From positions 62,001-126,000 of the forward strand of contig JAHJGO010000013.1 in NCBI GenBank assembly GCA_018824405.1: a stretch of DNA of 64,000 nt, read 5' to 3'. This stretch comes from Gammaproteobacteria bacterium (GTDB taxonomy: Bacteria > Pseudomonadota > Gammaproteobacteria > Burkholderiales > Sulfuricellaceae). The translations under genes and the position numbers were made by a program. The notes beneath the pieces were generated by a model. That model had not been told where the DNA came from and made no database searches. It saw only the letters and a list, made by a program, of their open reading frames with translations. Positions 18,836-30,396 of this stretch are shown piece by piece (position 1 is the first letter of the stretch; every line of letters begins with the position of its first letter).

Positions 18836-19525
18836 TTACTTCCCGGTCAAGGCGGCGAGGTTGAAAATCTGTGGAATGCGTTGCAGCCAGGAATCATCCA
18901 TTTGGAGCTTCTTCAGGCATGCGGCAAGGTGTCCGGGGTGGGCCATCATCGCGATGGCATTGTTAAAGGCTTTGCCCGCACTTTCGCCGTAGGCATTTCT
19001 GACCTTTTTCCATGCACTTTCAGGAATGGGGCCCCAGTTCTGGATCATGAGTGCCAAGTCGATTATGTCCCGGCTGGCGGTCGAGATGTCTGTATATCGA
19101 TCGGTATTCGCCAGCAATTTCTCAGCGTACATGTCCGTCCGGCATAACACCGGGATGCCCCAGAGCGAATTCATTTCTCCTGATAAAGGGATGCGGTCTT
19201 CGCGAATGATTTCAAATTTTATGGGTGTATTGTCAATTTCAACAAAGGTGCGAATGCCGTAACGGTCTGCCTTTAAATCACGGAGTTGTTTTGGCGCCTC
19301 CGTAAAGAAACCGGCCAGGCCCCGGTCATAGGCAATGTTTCTCAGAACGCGGTAACCCTCTGCTGATGCGCAGATCAGGTCAACATCAACAGACTCCCGA
19401 TATTCATCGAGCAAAAGCACAATGGCCGTGCCGCCGCCAAAGTAGCACTCTGTTTGCTCAAGTAATGTGCCGTCGAGGGCCTGCATAAGCTTGAAAACAC
19501 GCTGGTGATGCGCTCGCTTACACAT
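18836..19525 (-). CDS. AbiEii/AbiGii-like nucleotidyltransferase, putative toxin
   Basis: 229 residues with a nucleotidyltransferase signature: GGGTAIVLLL at about 30-39 followed by VDVDL (D47 and D49). This resembles the AbiEii/AbiGii toxin family, whose members inhibit growth by nucleotidylating targets and act in abortive infection or toxin-antitoxin pairs. The start overlaps the end of a 66-residue gene by eight bases, suggesting a two-gene unit. Toxicity and pairing are inferred from family and layout; no classical AbiEi winged-helix antitoxin is present. Confidence 0.7.
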   Translation of the reverse strand: MCKRAHHQRVFKLMQALDGTLLEQTECYFGGGTAIVLLLDEYRESVDVDLICASAEGYRVLRNIAYDRGLAGFFTEAPKQLRDLKADRYGIRTFVEIDNTPIKFEIIREDRIPLSGEMNSLWGIPVLCRTDMYAEKLLANTDRYTDISTASRDIIDLALMIQNWGPIPESAWKKVRNAYGESAGKAFNNAIAMMAHPGHLAACLKKLQMDDSWLQRIPQIFNLAALTGK

Positions 19526-23915: not shown

Positions 23916-24168
23916 CGTAGGGATAAAAGAAATTACCAAGGAAGCGGTGTTGGATAACGCGAAATATCAAGCAAATCCAACAGCTTGATCATTGAAATTC
24001 AATTTCGGAATGGATGGGAGATTTTATTTCAATCGCAAGTGCCCTGGTTTTCTTGTTTCAGTAAGGCTGTGTTTCATGGGGCGGTCCGGCTATTGCCATG
24101 GGCGCGATTGCAATCCATGTTTACAGGCATGAGGAGCAACAGAATTTTCCTGATGCTGAAGCCAGGCA

Positions 24169-25605
24169 TTAAGGATTTCCGCTGGAAAATCCAAGCGGAA
24201 TTGGGTTGCTCCACGATAGACTCAAGGCGGATTTTTCTGTCTGGCGCAGCAGTATTTGGCCAATGCTTTTGGCTGACATCGGGGGAAAGAAGTAATAGCC
24301 CTGCACTTCGTGGCACTGGTAAGAACGCAGAAAAATGAGCTGTTTTTCATTTTCCACGCCTTCTGCCACCACCCGAACGCCGAGGTTCTGCGCCATGGCG
24401 ATCACCGCGCGTGTAATGGCCGCATCGCTGGAATTGGTGGTGATGCCGCCGACAAAGGAGCGATCAATTTTGATGCTGTGGATGGGGAAGTACCTGAGGT
24501 AGCTGAGGGAAGAATAACCGGTGCCGAAATCATCGATGGCAAGCCTGACGCCCATGTTTTTGAGGACTTTCAGGGTTTCGATGGCTGCATCGATGTCGTG
24601 CAGGGCAATGGTTTCGGTCAGTTCCAGTTCTAGCCAGCGCGGCGCCAGGCCGCTTTTCTCCAGGACTCCATGCACCAGTTGGTCGAGCCCGGGCTTGCTG
24701 AATTGCTGCGCCGACAGATTGACCGCCATGCGCAGGCTGGTGTGTCCCTGTTTGTGCCAGGTGCTGTTCTGGGTGCAGGCGGTATGCAGCACCCACTCGC
24801 TGATGGGATGGATGAGTCCGGTTTCTTCCGCCAGCGGAATGAATTCCGTGGGTGAGATTGTGCCCAGTTCTGGATGGTTCCAGCGCAGCAGGGCTTCAAC
24901 GCCGCGCACTTCGCCGTTGTCAAGGTCGATTTGCGGCTGATAGAGCAAAACCAGCTGTTCTTTTTCCAGTGCGTGGTGCAAGGCACGCTCCAGTACGGCA
25001 CGGCGAGTCGAGCGGCGGCTCTGGTGCCGTTCCGGGTCGAAAAACAGATGGCTGTCACGTCCGTGGTCCTTGATCTGATCCATCGCAGTCTTGGCGTTGG
25101 CGATCAGCTCGCAGACGGATTTTCCCTGGCCCGGATAGTGGCTGATGCCGATACTGGCGGTGATGAAGGCTTCTTCTCCTTCGATCAGGAAAGGCGCGGA
25201 AAGGCTCTGATTGATGCGTTCAGCCAGGGCGGAAACCGCTTGGCCGTCGGCAGGGATTTCCACGGCCAGAGCAAAGGAGTCACCGCCCAGGCGGGCCAAG
25301 GCGCAATGCCCGGTCAGGAATGCTGCAAGGCGCCTGGAGCTGGCTTGCAGCACCAGATCTCCGGCTGCATAGCCGTATGTATCGTTGATCTGCTTGAAAC
25401 GATCTAGCCCGATAACCATAACGGCGAGTTCTTGTGACTTGTGTTCGGCGCGAGACAGGCATAACTCAAGCTGATTTCTGAACAGCGCGTAGTTGGGCAG
25501 GCTGGTCAATGCGTCGAGAAATGCGGGCGCATCAGGCAGGTTCAAATCAGGCAGCTGCTCCGGTTGAGCTTCAATGCTGGCGGCGGTGTTGTTTAGAAAT
25601 TGCAT
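24169..25605 (-). CDS. Degenerate GGDEF plus EAL domain protein, probable c-di-GMP phosphodiesterase
   Basis: 478 residues, no signal peptide or membrane helix. The GGDEF domain (about 30-190) has GGDSF at 107-111 instead of GGDEF, so diguanylate cyclase activity is doubtful. The EAL domain (about 200-450) keeps EALLR (237-241), NLSAQQF, ELTET, DDFGTGYSSL (358-367), KIDRSF, AEGVE and QGYYF, so phosphodiesterase activity is expected. The degenerate GGDEF may bind GTP as an allosteric module, as in some related proteins. The leader upstream is highly structured (25621-25687). Confidence 0.92.
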   Translation of the reverse strand: MQFLNNTAASIEAQPEQLPDLNLPDAPAFLDALTSLPNYALFRNQLELCLSRAEHKSQELAVMVIGLDRFKQINDTYGYAAGDLVLQASSRRLAAFLTGHCALARLGGDSFALAVEIPADGQAVSALAERINQSLSAPFLIEGEEAFITASIGISHYPGQGKSVCELIANAKTAMDQIKDHGRDSHLFFDPERHQSRRSTRRAVLERALHHALEKEQLVLLYQPQIDLDNGEVRGVEALLRWNHPELGTISPTEFIPLAEETGLIHPISEWVLHTACTQNSTWHKQGHTSLRMAVNLSAQQFSKPGLDQLVHGVLEKSGLAPRWLELELTETIALHDIDAAIETLKVLKNMGVRLAIDDFGTGYSSLSYLRYFPIHSIKIDRSFVGGITTNSSDAAITRAVIAMAQNLGVRVVAEGVENEKQLIFLRSYQCHEVQGYYFFPPMSAKSIGQILLRQTEKSALSLSWSNPIPLGFSSGNP

Positions 25606-25620
25606 CGAGTGGCTCAGTAA

Positions 25621-25687
25621 TCGGACAAGGCTATCCCGAACGTAAGGATAGGGGTTTGTCCCCGGCAGTGCTGCCGGAGTAGTCCGA
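25621..25687 (-). promoter_or_regulatory. Structured leader with alternative pairings ahead of the GGDEF-EAL gene
   Basis: On the minus strand the order is TCGGAC, the hairpin CCGGCAG-CA-CTGCCGG, then GGACAA, CTATCC, a nine-base loop, GGATAG and TTGTCCGA, ending 16 bases before the ATG. The final GTCC can pair either with the nearby GGAC of GGACAA or with the first GGAC, giving mutually exclusive folds. It does not match the GEMM c-di-GMP riboswitch consensus I know. It could also be a terminator of the response regulator gene 50 bases upstream. Confidence 0.45.
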
Positions 25688-25736
25688 AAGGATTGCAGGG
25701 ATTATCTGTCTGAGTATAGGAATAATCCTGCATGGT

Positions 25737-26366
25737 TTAGTCGAAAAGTTGATGTTCGAGGGCGTAACGAATCAATTCGGCATTGTTCGTCATGCCCATT
25801 TTTTCCAGCAGGCGTGTGCGATAGGTGCTGATGGTCTTGATGCTGAGTGAAAGCGTCTGGGCAATTTCGGTGAGGGATTTGCCTGCCACGATATGACGGA
25901 AAACCAGATGTTCCCGGTCGGATAGCAGAGTGTGCAGTTGCTGTCTGTTGCCATAAAGCGAATGCAGCAGGTGGTCTGCCAGGGTGCGGCTGGCGTACCT
26001 GCCGCCAGCTGCAGCTTTGCGAATGGCGATGAGCAGCTCATCGGCGTCGGTGTCCTTGGAAAGGTATCCGGCTGCACCGAGTTTGATGGCCCGTATCGCA
26101 TATTGCTCCTCGGGATACATGCTGAGAATGAGTACCGGCAGATCGGTTTTTTCCAACTTGATCTGTTTCAGTACGTCCAGCCCGGATTTCCCCGGCAGGT
26201 TGATATCCAGCACCACCACATCCCAGTCTTGGTTGCGCATCAGCTCGAGTGCTTCATGGCCGCTGCCAGCCTCGGCGCCGACCCGGATGTCAGGAGTGTC
26301 GGCTAAGATACGCTTCAAACCGGCGCGAAAAATATTGTGATCATCGGCGATGAGGAGATTGATCAT
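25737..26366 (-). CDS. NarL/FixJ-family response regulator
   Basis: 209 residues: a receiver domain with acidic pocket D8/D9, phospho-acceptor D54 (VVLDINLP) and K104 (LSKDT), then a LuxR-type helix-turn-helix (about 145-205, with LSDREHLVFRHIVAGKSLTEIA). The layout resembles GacA/UvrY. Its ATG overlaps the stop of the histidine kinase gene as ATGA, so the two are a coupled two-component pair. Targets are unknown. Confidence 0.94.
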   Translation of the reverse strand: MINLLIADDHNIFRAGLKRILADTPDIRVGAEAGSGHEALELMRNQDWDVVVLDINLPGKSGLDVLKQIKLEKTDLPVLILSMYPEEQYAIRAIKLGAAGYLSKDTDADELLIAIRKAAAGGRYASRTLADHLLHSLYGNRQQLHTLLSDREHLVFRHIVAGKSLTEIAQTLSLSIKTISTYRTRLLEKMGMTNNAELIRYALEHQLFD

Positions 26367-27448
26367 GGTGTCGTGTTATCCACAAGGGAGGAAGGGACAT
26401 GCAGATAGACGGTAGTGCCATGACCTGGCGTGCTGCTGATGCTCAGTTCGCCCCCCAGTTGCTTGGCGCGTTCCTGCATGCCGAGGATGCCGTAGGATTG
26501 GAAAGATGGAATCCGTTCCGGATCCATTCCGTTGCCATTATCGCTGATGGAGATGGTCAGGCCGTCAGGAGCAAGCATAAGCCCAATTTCCACAGAACTT
26601 GCAGCGGCATGGCGTACAACATTGGTGAGAGATTCCTGAAAAATGCGGAAAATGGCAGTGGCGTGCTGGTCGTCCAGCACTACTTCCTGTAGTGGCGGGG
26701 TGAAGCTGTAGGCGATTCCCCGTTGGCCAAGTAGTGTTGCAGAATGTTCCTCGATTGCCGCTGCCAGGCCCAGATTGTCCAGTGCCGCAGGGCGCAGGTC
26801 TGCTGCGACGCGTCGTGCGGTATGCAGCGCTTCCATGGTCAGCTGCGACATGGCTTGAGTGCGTTCCAGCAATACCGGATCGTGCATGCGTTTGGCCAGC
26901 CAGCCCAGATCCATCTTCAAGGTGCTGAGGATGCCGCCCAGTTCGTCGTGAATTTCCCGCGCGATCTTGGTGCGCTCGTCCTCCCGTGCGCTTTGGACGT
27001 GACCGGACAGTTTTTCCAGCAATTCCCGTGCATGTTGGCTTTCATCCTCACGCTGCTTGGACAGGGTGATGTTGAGAATAATGCCGTCCCAAATGGTGGC
27101 GCCGTCTGCCAAGGTGCGTGGCACGGCTCGCAGGTTAATCCATTTGACGTCCCCCGGAGGAACGATGACACGGCCTTCCCAGTTCCAGTGCGTGTGTTTC
27201 TGAGCGGAAAGACGCATCGCGGCAAAGAAAGATTCATGGTCGTCGGGGTGCAGGTTGCTGACGCAGGGAAGCCAGGGAATGTCAGAAACCGGGCACGGTT
27301 CGCCGCATACGGCGGTCACCGCCTTGCTGGTAAATAGCGACTTGAGGCTGCCATCGGTACATTGCTGCAGTTGGAATACCAGGGCAGGGACGTTGGCAGT
27401 GATGGCCTCGATCCGTAATCCATCATCGTGCAATGAGATATCCTGCAT
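26363..27448 (-). CDS. Soluble PAS-containing histidine kinase (HisKA_3/NarX-type)
   Basis: 361 residues from ATG 27448; a longer frame reaches 27592 inside the MCP gene and is rejected. No membrane helix. A PAS fold (about 30-130, with LHPDDHESFFAAM and WEGRVIVPPGDVKWIN) precedes the HisKA_3 dimerisation domain with phospho-acceptor H167 (AREIHDELGG). A HATPase domain follows, with IFQESLTNVVRHA, ISDNGNG and GILGMQERA. The cognate partner is the overlapping response regulator. It starts 16 bases after the MCP stop, so it may receive input from that receptor. Confidence 0.93.
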   Translation of the reverse strand: MQDISLHDDGLRIEAITANVPALVFQLQQCTDGSLKSLFTSKAVTAVCGEPCPVSDIPWLPCVSNLHPDDHESFFAAMRLSAQKHTHWNWEGRVIVPPGDVKWINLRAVPRTLADGATIWDGIILNITLSKQREDESQHARELLEKLSGHVQSAREDERTKIAREIHDELGGILSTLKMDLGWLAKRMHDPVLLERTQAMSQLTMEALHTARRVAADLRPAALDNLGLAAAIEEHSATLLGQRGIAYSFTPPLQEVVLDDQHATAIFRIFQESLTNVVRHAAASSVEIGLMLAPDGLTISISDNGNGMDPERIPSFQSYGILGMQERAKQLGGELSISSTPGHGTTVYLHVPSSLVDNTTP

Positions 27449-27464
27449 GCTGATCGGCGCGCCC

Positions 27465-29105
27465 TTAAACCTTGAAGCGGCTAACCATGTTTTGCAGGTC
27501 TTCCGCCAGTTGCTCCAGATGTTGCGCGGCGTTGGCGGTCTGACCCACGGCCAGACTGTTTTCTGCGGCCATGGCGGCGATGGCCTCGACATTGGCGCTC
27601 ACTTCATTGCTGGCGGTGCGCTGGTGTTCTGTAATGATGGCCACATCGGCGACCTTGCTGCCGACACTATTGACCGCACTATTGGCCTCGGATAAAACCA
27701 CGGCCACGGTTTCCATCGAATCCTGGCTGGAAAGCAGGTGGGACAGACCCCTCTCGATGGCTTTGTCCACCACGACGGATTGTTGGGCAAGTGACTGGGT
27801 GACGGTATCAATCTGGCTGGCAGAGTGAGAGGATTTTTCAGCAAGTTTTCGCACTTCATCGGCGACCACGGCAAAGCCGCGCCCCTGTTCTCCGGCGCGC
27901 GCAGCCTCGATTGCGGCGTTGAGTGCGAGCAGATTTGTCTGCTCGGCAATGTCCTTCACCTGCCTGGTCATGGCGTGAATGGAGGTGGTGCTGCGAGTGA
28001 ACTCATTCACAGCGGCAGCGATTTCCTTGACTGCGGATTCGACCTGGTCGATTTCGCCCACCAGCACGGAAATGCTTTCATTGCCCTGGTGTGAACGTTC
28101 CAGGCTTTGCTCCGAAAGCTGTTGCACTTCGTCCGTGCTTTGCGCCACCGTGGAAATGCTGGCAGCCATTTCCTCCACGGCTGCGGCCGTGGCGGCGGAT
28201 TTATCGCGTTGCTGCGCGGATCCGTCTGCTACCTGCTGCGCACCCAGCGCGAGTTGTCGTGCCGCTGCGGAAACCTGAAGTGCCAAGTGATCGACTTCGC
28301 GTACCAAGTGGCTGAATTTTTCCATGACCTGATTGAACAGGCCGGATGCCTCACCGATTTCGTCTGTGCTGCGTACTTTCAGGCGACGCGTCAAATCACC
28401 TTCGCCTTCGGCAATGTCATGCAGGCCGTGGGTCATTTCCTCCAGTGGCTTGGTGACGAAATGGCGAATGAAAAGATAGATAAAAGCCAGTAGCGGCAGA
28501 CTGATCAACACAGCGGCAAAGAAAATCTTGGTTCTGAAATCCGCCACGGACTGGTTGACCTTGTCGAGGGAGATTTTCATGCTGACTGCGCCGAGTACTG
28601 TGCCTTCAGGCACGGTATGGCACATCAGACAATCCTTGCCAAGGTAGTTCTTGGCTGCGGTGACGGGAATCACGGCGCGCAGGCTTTCCTTGTCTTGGCC
28701 ATTGTCCTCTAGAACCTGAAAGTAGGGCTTTGCACTTTGCAGGACCTGCATTTCCAGCTCGTCAGCACCACCTTCCTCTGCGCTTCCCTGGCCGAACTGT
28801 TTGGTGACCGCCTCGCCCCGCAGCACTTTCAGGGAGGTAATGTTGTCGGCCTGCTTGACCTGGTCGAGGAACACCGCGCGTTGCGCGATGGTGCCGGTAA
28901 GCATCATGCCGGTCAGGCTGGACATGGTCATCTGATGAATGGCGAGAGAGAAGCCCTTGGCTTCCTCAATGGCGGTTGCGCGCTGCGAATTTGAGGCCCA
29001 GAAAATCATCCCGCCCCAAGCCAGCACCAGCATCAGCCAGATTACGCCCACCAGACGGATCCATATTTTAAGGTTCTTTATATTGCCGATGCTTGCGCCG
29101 AACAT
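27465..29105 (-). CDS. Methyl-accepting chemotaxis protein with periplasmic c-type heme motif
   Basis: 546 residues from ATG 29105 (GAGGA nine bases upstream). One helix (about 12-37), a periplasmic domain (about 38-190), a second helix (about 193-214), a HAMP domain with [12 protein letters not shown], and a cytoplasmic coiled coil with the signalling tip [19 protein letters not shown]. The periplasmic domain contains CLMCH at 159-163, a CXXCH site for covalent heme, in a setting like the PAS-type heme sensor domains described in Geobacter chemoreceptors. A redox or gas input is inferred. It is the first gene of MCP-kinase-regulator. Confidence 0.93.
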
Positions 29106-29228
29106 GGTCAATGATCCTCGAAGGAGTCAGGGAAAAGCAGATTAAGCCGGGTACTATAACAGCCCTTCAGGTGGAATGGGGGGGTGGCAGAAAGACGCAC
29201 GAGACCTGTGGCACGCCTGTCCGGAAGT

Positions 29229-30290
29229 TCAGATGGCGAGATCGATTTGCTGCAGGCTGCCGACGGAGCCGTTTTCTCTGAGGTAGATGCCGGTAGCGCG
29301 GACCTGACCGTCAAGGCGGTTGCTGGCATCCTTTAAACTGAATTCAGTTGACGCATTGCCCAGAAACAGCGCCCCCACGCCGGCTGCTTTCAGAGAGGCG
29401 AGCTGGTCTTTGCCCTCGGCATCCTTGCTCCAGATCTTGAGCTGTGCGAACACGGCATCGTTCTCGTCAATCCACTGGTTGCCGTCCTGATCGTAGGCGG
29501 CCAGTTCGCTGAAGCCGTTGCCGCTGGCCGCACCGAACAGTTCGCTGCCATTGTTGATCCTGCCGTCCTGGTTCTTGTCGAGCGCCAGAAATCCGCTGCC
29601 GGGGGCGACGAAGGAAATCTGCTCGGCGCTACCGTCGGCATCGAGGTCGAAACTGAATTTGGCGGCGGTCAATTGAGCTGCGCTGCCGCTGAAGTTGATC
29701 ACCAGCGGATCTTTTACCTGTCGCGCCGCGTCGCCCAGACGCACGCTGACGTCGCTTTGCTCCAGATGCTCGCGGCTCATGGAGAGTTGCAGATTGAATG
29801 CAATTTCCCTGCCATCGGCGGTTTTAACGATGCCCTGGGCCTGGAAGCGGGTCTGCTCGGCTTCGTAATGGGTTTCGTGGCGTTCATATTCGATGCCGTA
29901 ACCTGAAGGCCGTGATGCGGGTTGTTCCCCGTTTGCCCTGGTGTCCTGCGGTTGATCCGGCTGCGGCGTGTTGATGGCCTGCAGGTCTTTTAGCGACATG
30001 ATGCGAATTTTTCTGCCGGTCATGGCTTCCACCATGCCGATCAGCAGTTGCATGCGCGGGTCGTTTTCCAGTGCATCCTGCGTCTCCGAAACCGCATCCG
30101 ATTTCTGTGCCGCCTTGCCTTGTGCGGAAATGGAAACCGTCTCAGCTGCCGGGCGGTTAATTGGCCTGCCGCGCCCTTCGAAATCCGGGCGCTCCGAGCC
30201 TACCCAGGCGCGTAAAGATTCACGCAGCGAGTGTTGTTCCACGCTGGCGTGCTGGCTGCTTAGTAAAATTTCCGAGCTTGCGATTTTCAT
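29229..30290 (-). CDS. Protein with EF-hand-like calcium-binding motifs, function unknown
   Basis: 353 residues from ATG 30290 (AGGGA upstream; a TTG two codons earlier is also in frame). No signal peptide or membrane helix. The N-terminal third is low complexity and polar. The C-terminal half has three Asp-rich loops: DLDADGS (about 215-221), DKNQDGRINNGSE (238-250) and DQDGNQWIDEND (267-278), followed by FAQLKIW. I recognise this combination only as a recurrent family of unknown function, sometimes exported without a classical signal. It lies 123 bases upstream of the MCP gene on the same strand. Confidence 0.75.
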   Translation of the reverse strand: MKIASSEILLSSQHASVEQHSLRESLRAWVGSERPDFEGRGRPINRPAAETVSISAQGKAAQKSDAVSETQDALENDPRMQLLIGMVEAMTGRKIRIMSLKDLQAINTPQPDQPQDTRANGEQPASRPSGYGIEYERHETHYEAEQTRFQAQGIVKTADGREIAFNLQLSMSREHLEQSDVSVRLGDAARQVKDPLVINFSGSAAQLTAAKFSFDLDADGSAEQISFVAPGSGFLALDKNQDGRINNGSELFGAASGNGFSELAAYDQDGNQWIDENDAVFAQLKIWSKDAEGKDQLASLKAAGVGALFLGNASTEFSLKDASNRLDGQVRATGIYLRENGSVGSLQQIDLAI

Positions 30291-30396
30291 GATCAATCCC
30301 TTTAAAGAAAGCGCAAGTTTCCTGCTTTTTTTTGGGATTGTTGGATGGGAAAGCTTGCCTCTGTCTTAGCGGCAAGGAAAAGAAAAACTTGAGGAT

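Follow-up and report, generated by a model that had tools for sequence, protein, structure and literature searches.

Does a redox or gas signal perceived by a heme-type chemoreceptor feed both gene regulation and c-di-GMP turnover? The question is raised by four adjoining genes in a relative of Sulfuricella, all on the minus strand of the window (the whole 64,000-nucleotide stretch of DNA that was analysed) and read in the order MCP, kinase, regulator, GGDSF/EAL protein:

27465..29105, minus strand: MCP of 546 aa, with TM1, a periplasmic Cache-like domain carrying CLMCH, TM2, HAMP and an MCP signalling domain
26363..27448, minus strand: soluble PAS-HisKA_3-HATPase_c histidine kinase of 361 aa
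25737..26366, minus strand: NarL/FixJ-type response regulator, receiver plus GerE (Response_reg 101.6 bits and GerE 57.2 bits, over the cut-off)
24169..25605, minus strand: protein of 478 aa with a degenerate GGDEF domain (GGDSF) and an EAL domain

The MCP stop codon and the kinase ATG are separated by 16 bases, the kinase and regulator genes overlap by 4 bases, and 131 bp lie between the regulator and the GGDEF/EAL gene. A longer open frame exists for the kinase; the short ATG start was chosen, in agreement with the orthologues. Both the coordinates and the domain searches bear out the layout given in an earlier note, namely, four consecutive same-strand genes for a CLMCH MCP, a PAS kinase 16 bases on, an overlapping regulator, and a degenerate-GGDEF/EAL protein. 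We consider the chances somewhat better than even that this is a genus-restricted cluster that expresses a soluble PAS kinase and a NarL-type regulator together with an sCache_heme-like chemoreceptor, which probably responds to NO, to redox state, or to both. It is a compact case in which a probable heme chemoreceptor with a periplasmic sensor, a kinase-regulator pair for transcription, and a predicted c-di-GMP phosphodiesterase are encoded side by side. The combination hints that movement, gene expression, and c-di-GMP could all answer to a single cue.

The MCP has the TM-HAMP-MCPsignal architecture of a methyl-accepting chemotaxis protein, with HAMP and MCPsignal scores of 41.7 and 122.4 bits, both above cut-off; by simple hydropathy, its two hydrophobic stretches are placed near residues 11 and 190. 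Its sensor domain carries the CXXCH heme c motif of sCache_heme domains as CLMCH at residues 159 to 163, and Met68, C159, C162, and H163 are invariant in 21/21 homologues. The structure model of this domain (mean pLDDT, 82) is a Cache domain with predicted strands at residues 89 to 96, 128 to 133, 140 to 149, and 170 to 179, and the motif falls between the last two, that is, in a beta3-beta4 insertion of the predicted fold. The same position has been reported for sCache_heme (PMC12889525). Foldseek returned GSU0935 (3b42), a Geobacter heme-c chemoreceptor, as the top match (E 3.1e-5), at an rmsd of 13.8. Tll0287 (5b82) matched with a Z of 10.1 and an rmsd of 3.6 over 121 residues; in the VIA list it is outranked by heme-free WalK domains (Z 11.8 to 13.4).

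Sequence searches did not place the domain. Against PF11845 it scored 12.9 bits, under the gathering cut-off of 24.1, and 8 of the 21 homologues matched this family weakly (best E, 0.045). The best subthreshold Pfam match was T4SS_pilin (E 0.0029, residues 9 to 50), which is not a heme family; Pfam at E 0.01 gave nothing useful, and PDB sequence searches with phmmer and with a profile found no credible match. The placement thus came only from fold comparison: the Cache model with CXXCH between strands 3 and 4, together with GSU0935 as the best PDB match, is the ground for the resemblance to sCache_heme, and since the score is below the Pfam cut-off, the domain is named sCache_heme-like on account of its fold and motif, without assignment to PF11845. 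The window MCP has the predicted Cache fold, the beta3-beta4 CXXCH, the TM-HAMP-MCP architecture, and a candidate distal Met in common with the sCache_heme/Tll0287-like systems (PF11845), among them the Geobacter heme MCPs GSU0582 and GSU0935. Unlike these systems, its sequence lies under the Pfam cut-off, and its gene has a kinase, a regulator, and an EAL gene as partners. Another MCP with c-type heme, proposed to sense oxygen or redox potential, is DcrA of Desulfovibrio vulgaris, a likeness drawn from its description. On the predicted model, the window MCP is a probable heme-based gas or redox chemoreceptor.

Judged from fold and motif, CLMCH would bind heme c with His163 as the proximal ligand, and Met68 is a candidate distal ligand that could be displaced by NO or by oxidation. 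Recently, sCache_heme domains have been reported to bind NO, and in GSU0935 the ligand Met60 is displaced by NO and CO (PMC8396549). Genes of the Cytochrom_D1 family are found in 8/8 genomes of the genus; this family also covers relatives of the nitrite reductase, so that NO production in the genus is only suggested. The MCP would then signal in the usual manner, most likely to a CheA encoded elsewhere: CheA-type dimerisation domains occur at three places in the genome, one of them barely at the cut-off (23.1 versus 23 bits).

The kinase lacks a hydrophobic stretch (simple hydropathy). Its HisKA_3 (47.6 bits) and HATPase_c (60.9 bits) domains score above cut-off, PAS_3 falls just below (23.4 versus 25.6), and the phosphoacceptor His167 is invariant in 19/19 homologues, as expected of a HisKA_3 histidine kinase. 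The structure model (mean pLDDT, 78; pTM, 0.43) has the PAS, DHp, and catalytic domains as expected. The PAS residues Cys48 and Cys62 are retained in four cluster orthologues, and the PAS domain, perhaps by means of these cysteines, may read a related cytoplasmic cue, upon which the kinase would phosphorylate the regulator encoded by the overlapping gene. The pair has the same HisKA_3 plus HATPase_c and receiver-GerE tandem as kinases of the UhpB/NarX/NarQ type with a NarL-type regulator; in contrast to that type, the window kinase has no membrane sensor, and NCBIfam scores are well below the cut-offs (UhpB, 142.5/408; NarQ, 99.1/553; NarX, 71.4/578; NarL, 129.7/250 bits).

Comparative genomics shows that the cluster is conserved, within limits. 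The gene order is present in four of the eight genomes of the genus (G000, G015, G016, and G019) and was not found in the remainder of a 399-genome sample of the taxonomic order; all four cluster genomes belong to one genus. The component parts are of known kinds; among the genomes searched, their combination was met in one genus only. In the three other cluster genomes, the MCP-kinase gap is 4 to 19 bases (counted in G015 from a GTG that we chose as the kinase start), and the kinase and regulator genes overlap by 4 bases. All four genes are under purifying selection, as estimated from dN/dS values of 0.07 to 0.23 against these genomes, and because order and junctions are retained as well, the cluster is judged to be more than chance. 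A possible -10 element of the MCP gene is identical in the five genomes with the MCP gene in this hemH-grpE interval:

29153..29158, minus strand: TATAGT, possible -10 of the MCP gene, a putative promoter element not picked up by the sigma-70 consensus scan

The contents of the hemH-grpE site vary within the genus, and the genes might be neighbours by history at a permissive site, co-transcribed but with independent signals and outputs. G017, G020, and G021 have neither the MCP nor the kinase, regulator, and EAL genes there, and G018 has the MCP alone, without the kinase. A fifth gene, present in G015 (encoding an 898-aa PAS-PAS-GGDEF-EAL protein) and also in G019, survives in the window only as relics:

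24132..24170, minus strand: relic of the 5' end of the fifth gene
24040..24084, minus strand: relic of the 3' end of the same gene

However, the short MCP-kinase gap, the 4-base overlap, and the spacing of a box ahead of the EAL gene (below) have been retained although the cluster genomes differ from the window by a synonymous divergence of 0.56 to 1.33, which makes a purely historical association doubtful.

The last gene of the cluster probably encodes a c-di-GMP phosphodiesterase, as predicted from its motifs. The EAL domain scores 258.3 bits and has the catalytic motifs EALLR, NLS, ELTE, DDFGTGY, IKID, EGVE, and QGY; they are complete in all four orthologues. The other domain reads GGDSF in the window protein and GGDTF in the three orthologues, with no RxxD before either (4/4), and therefore has neither the GGDEF/GGEEF nor the I-site of a diguanylate cyclase.

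Several short elements lie between the regulator and this gene:

25717..25730, minus strand: operator-like inverted repeat CAGGATTATTCCTA (the box), 6 bp past the stop codon of the regulator gene and 111 bp ahead of the EAL start codon
25671..25688, minus strand: conserved block TTCGGACTACTCCGGCAG, the end of which can pair with the following bases CCGGCAGCACTGCCGG
25645-25650, minus strand: TATCCT, possible -10 downstream of the block, a putative promoter element

In each of the four cluster genomes, the box precedes the EAL start by 111 to 112 bp. A shuffle test in these genomes is circular, as the consensus was drawn from them, and the G016 box, with 4 mismatches to that consensus, was equalled by 114 of 2,000 shuffles. 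Outside the cluster, when as many as 3 mismatches were allowed and the 160 bp past the regulator gene were searched, the box follows related regulators at 6/32 loci in a first set and at 7/37 in a second, later set, compared with 0.6% and 1.2%, respectively, of random windows of the loci, which may overlap the box site. The first set was reduced from 35 loci by dropping L071 and L080 (no regulator match reaching the C terminus) and L065 (2 bp after the regulator); of the 40 loci of the second, those 37 were used in which a regulator is followed by 100 bp or more. The total of 13/69 does not represent 13 independent events, because there are near-copies among these loci (L075/L078 and L136/L195). 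In the window's own genome, box-like sites showed no excess: 3 places, versus 9 for the backwards control. One of the 3 falls within a Cytochrom_D1 match (C24:44317-45396), and no regulon could be drawn. The block has one perfect copy in the genome, in the window, and weak copies number 40 forward and 29 reverse, versus 14 and 12 for the backwards control. A sigma-70 consensus scan found no site (shuffles, 2.2), and a literature search on the letters of the box gave no related report.

The box, newly noted here, suggests from its position and conservation that the regulator controls the phosphodiesterase gene, and it is a testable candidate operator for a widespread NarL-type regulator family that elsewhere lies beside chemosensory gene clusters. 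Comparative sequence data are consistent with a last step in which the regulator would bind the palindromic box after its own gene and control the adjacent gene, changing c-di-GMP. The repeat could instead be a transcription terminator or RNA hairpin: at L136 its G-C arms are longer and T residues follow, a hairpin and T-run that could terminate transcription, and by our reading several loci also have, after the box, a TCAGC...GCTGA hairpin that carries a T-run. However, the repeat of the window genus is A+T-rich and lacks a T-run, the other loci have a better terminator in their separate downstream hairpin, and a further TTCCTAC-like half-site, read by eye and without statistics, lies about 20 bases on at several loci. 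A terminator is thus unlikely. The earlier proposal of a heme signal feeding gene regulation and c-di-GMP is partly supported, on three points: a heme-type sensor by predicted fold and CXXCH place, a conserved cluster, and a plausible link through the conserved box.

Whether the MCP itself addresses the kinase is a separate matter. It might serve the soluble kinase as a sensor in trans, the heme signal being passed on by contact with the MCP or its array and CheA being bypassed. The kinase lacks a TM or periplasmic sensor of its own, its immediate upstream neighbour in all four genomes with this kinase orthologue is the MCP gene (4 to 19 bases away), and related kinase-regulator pairs recur near MCP genes. 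Against this, CheW-like and Hpt domains are missing from the kinase, which carries its own PAS, the MCP signalling domain is ordinary, CheA-type genes are available in the genome, and short kinase homologues occur without an MCP within 1.5 kb (L085 and L087, open frames of 389 and 412 aa). The heme MCP is found without the kinase in G018, at the same site, and in other genera, and pairs of this family without a heme MCP occur elsewhere; each being found without the other, the coupling is not obligatory. We regard this route as quite unlikely, and as slightly less likely still the fuller version in which an NO or redox signal drives taxis via CheA and, by kinase contact and the regulator's operator, controls c-di-GMP breakdown; if true, a chemoreceptor would act directly on a transcriptional two-component pair. 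The kinase as a CheA variant was rejected, as Hpt, H-kinase_dim, and CheW-like domains are lacking and Pfam at E 0.01 gave HATPase_c, HisKA_3, HATPase_c_2, and PAS_3 only.

The linkage of an MCP to a NarL-type pair had been called unusual, which is not supported as it stands: at least 10 of 71 other related loci have the pair within about 3 kb of an MCP, and cheA is present at 5 of those 10, so linkage alone is not unusual and its uniqueness is weakened. Nothing on point was found among the papers listed in literature searches on coupling between an MCP and a NarL-type pair (including PMC8199190) and on the genus and chemotaxis. Clusters of kinase, regulator, MCP, and CheA (L052, L061, L229, L230, and L235, from the order and sister genomes) have the same kinase-regulator family near MCP genes, and a box lies behind the regulator gene in L052, L061, L229 (= L196), and L235 (= L075) but not in L230 (= L137), which has 7 mismatches. 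The window cluster differs from these: it lacks cheA, its heme MCP gene precedes that of the kinase, its EAL gene comes after the box, and its regulators form a separate clade (support, 100/99).

The four consecutive genes of the signaling cluster, encoding an MCP, a kinase, a NarL-type regulator, and a GGDSF/EAL protein, lie on the minus strand at 29105-24169 as the earlier note described them and are most likely coexpressed, with two parallel outputs. These genes and the features adjoining them, with Pfam domains in parentheses, are as follows.

29105-27465, minus strand, MCP (HAMP, MCPsignal)
27448-26363, minus strand, kinase (HisKA_3, HATPase_c; PAS_3 slightly below its cut-off)
26366-25737, minus strand, regulator (Response_reg, GerE)
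25605-24169, minus strand, GGDSF/EAL protein (GGDEF, EAL)
24132-24170, relic of one end of a fifth gene (score of 38 against G019)
24040-24084, relic of the other end of the fifth gene (score of 44 against G015)
29229-30296, ORF355, 355-aa protein adjoining hemH

The kinase ATG at 27448 lies 16 bases past the MCP stop, the regulator gene overlaps the kinase gene by 4 bases, and the EAL gene begins 131 bp beyond the regulator gene. The MCP has two hydrophobic stretches and the kinase none. The cluster, on contig C20 of the 3.0-Mb genome, is flanked by ORF355 and hemH on one side and by grpE-dnaK-dnaJ on the other (named by eye from translations). The 355-aa protein has no Pfam match at an E value of 0.01; it is found beside hemH in six of the eight genomes of the genus, the exceptions being G018 and G019, in which the search of the site did not reveal it. 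Elsewhere in the window, an AbiEii-type nucleotidyltransferase (18836-19525; PF08843, 71.9 bits) may belong to a type IV toxin-antitoxin pair.

Comparison of the hemH-grpE site across the eight genomes shows the order MCP-kinase-regulator-EAL in four of them (G000, which is the window's own genome, G015, G016, and G019). G018 has the MCP alone, and none of the four genes is at this site in G017, G020, and G021. The four genes have dN/dS values of 0.07 to 0.23. In G015, an intact fifth gene follows, encoding an 898-aa PAS-PAS-GGDEF-EAL protein, and G019 retains its EAL part together with the same 5′ end. The alignments of the window indicate that its fifth gene has undergone an internal deletion that left both ends as relics (24040-24170); the best of 100 shuffles, compared with the G015 gene only, scored 26. 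Among 399 genomes of the order, kinase-like matches (E values up to 1e-60) occur in 107 and MCP-sensor matches (up to 1e-45) in 32, although homologues may be missed because at most five and seven candidates, respectively, were scored per genome. Going by the coordinates of the listed matches, kinase and MCP sensor are neighbors in G000, G015, G016, and G019 only; in G341, they share a contig about 15 kb apart.

The sequence of the MCP sensor domain falls below the cut-off for the Tll0287-like family PF11845 (12.9 bits versus 24.1). Among 21 sensor homologues, PF11845 was found in 8 (best E value, 0.045), the chemoreceptor sensor family PF21563 in 7 (0.0017), and T4SS_pilin in 8 (0.00077), all under the family cut-offs; T4SS_pilin is also the top match of the window sensor, at residues 9 to 50, which is the membrane segment. 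A structure model built from the 21 homologues (mean pLDDT, 82) has as its top Foldseek match the heme-c chemoreceptor domain of GSU0935 (3b42; E value, 3.1e-5; rmsd, 13.8), the crystal of which is a swapped dimer according to PMC3460858. The VIA list has Tll0287 (5b82) in fifth place (Z, 10.1), below heme-free WalK entries (Z, 11.8 to 13.4). In the model, the CXXCH motif lies between predicted strands 140-149 and 170-179, which is where a preprint (PMC12889525) puts it in sCache_heme. Met68 is invariant in all 21 homologues. The distal ligand of GSU0935 is Met60, which NO and CO displace (PMC8396549), and we infer that Met68 is its equivalent. The same preprint reports that a signaling-type sCache_heme member from Pseudomonas azotoformans binds NO, releases it slowly, and forms no stable oxygen complex. 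Cytochrom_D1-family genes, candidates for a nitrite reductase, are present in all eight genomes of the genus, which makes denitrification-derived NO a reasonable cue for the sensor.

Cys48 and Cys62 of the kinase PAS domain are kept in all four cluster orthologues; among 14 other kinase homologues, Cys48 is found in three and Cys62 in none. The kinase model places Cys48 at the end of a short helix and Cys62 within the next helix, and a redox, NO, or metal role for the pair would be a guess. In all four cluster genomes, the EAL protein has complete EAL motifs and a GGDSF or GGDTF motif without RxxD, and it is therefore predicted to be a phosphodiesterase, not a cyclase.

Alignment of the regulator-EAL gap reveals a near-palindrome, CAGGATTATTCCTA, which ends 111 to 112 bp upstream of the EAL start in all four genomes. 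It differs from the consensus TAGGAATATTCCTA by 2, 3, 4, and 3 mismatches, and 0, 6, 114, and 3 of 2,000 shuffles were as good, counts that are circular because the consensus was drawn from these genomes. With up to 3 mismatches and within 160 bp past the regulator, the box is found in 6 of 32 loci of other kinase-regulator homologues (random same-locus windows, 0.6%) and in 7 of 37 loci of a second set fetched afterwards (1.2%), the independent cases being fewer because L075/L078 and L136/L195 are near-copies. In most of these loci (56 of 69), it is absent at this threshold. The gene past the box often encodes a receiver, an MCP, or a CRP-like protein (mostly by eye; L052 and the L196 MCP by Pfam). 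The box may resemble those of RcsB/BvgA-type regulators. We read it as a putative operator through which the regulator would control the next gene, here that of the phosphodiesterase. A terminator is retained as a rival reading because of L136. A wider regulon is unsupported, since the box was found at only 3 places in the genome versus 9 for a backwards control. A conserved block, TTYVGAYTRCTCCGGCAG, has 69 weak matches in the genome versus 26 for its backwards control.

Linkage of an MCP to a NarL-type pair is less unusual than had been claimed. The 75 loci with kinase homologues yielded 71 alignable regulators (75 with the 4 from the window cluster; near-copies kept), and an MCP signaling domain is encoded no more than about 3 kb from the regulator in at least 10 of the 71 (L052, L061, L075, L078, L137, L189, L191, L196, L197, and L202), a lower bound because many loci have short flanks. 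CheA is found at five of the ten (L052, L061, L229 [the same locus as L196], L230 [L137], and L235 [L075]); the other five have little further flank. The five loci with CheA are chemosensory kinase-regulator-MCP-CheA clusters with a NarL-type pair, and the box follows the regulator in four of them; the order in L052 is kinase, regulator, box, receiver, MCP, CheA, MCP. In contrast, the window cluster has a heme MCP upstream of the kinase, lacks cheA, and has an EAL gene past the box. Its regulators form one clade (100/99) outside the MCP-near regulators. The parts of the cluster are of known kinds, and their arrangement is a new variation on them.

The MCP could conceivably also signal directly to the kinase, which would be a novelty. 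With two parallel outputs, the likeliest reading, the heme MCP would act on a CheA encoded elsewhere in the genome, and the kinase-regulator pair would act on the phosphodiesterase gene via the box. H-kinase_dim matches are found on contigs C16, C15, and C17, the last just at the cut-off.

Three more proteins of this genome exceed the PF11845 cut-off, with their Tll0287-like domains (L127-L129, wider in L133-L135) at the following positions.

C15:122577, Tll0287-like domain
C10:40830, Tll0287-like domain
C3:97324, Tll0287-like domain

Heme-Cache homologues at L033, L034, and L037 have open frames of 487 to 506 aa, with a C-terminal part that is neither MCP- nor GGDEF-like by eye. The C15 and C3 domains are parts of open frames of 855 and 1000 aa, and EAL similarity is seen a short way downstream; these proteins are therefore probably heme-Cache-GGDEF/EAL fusions.
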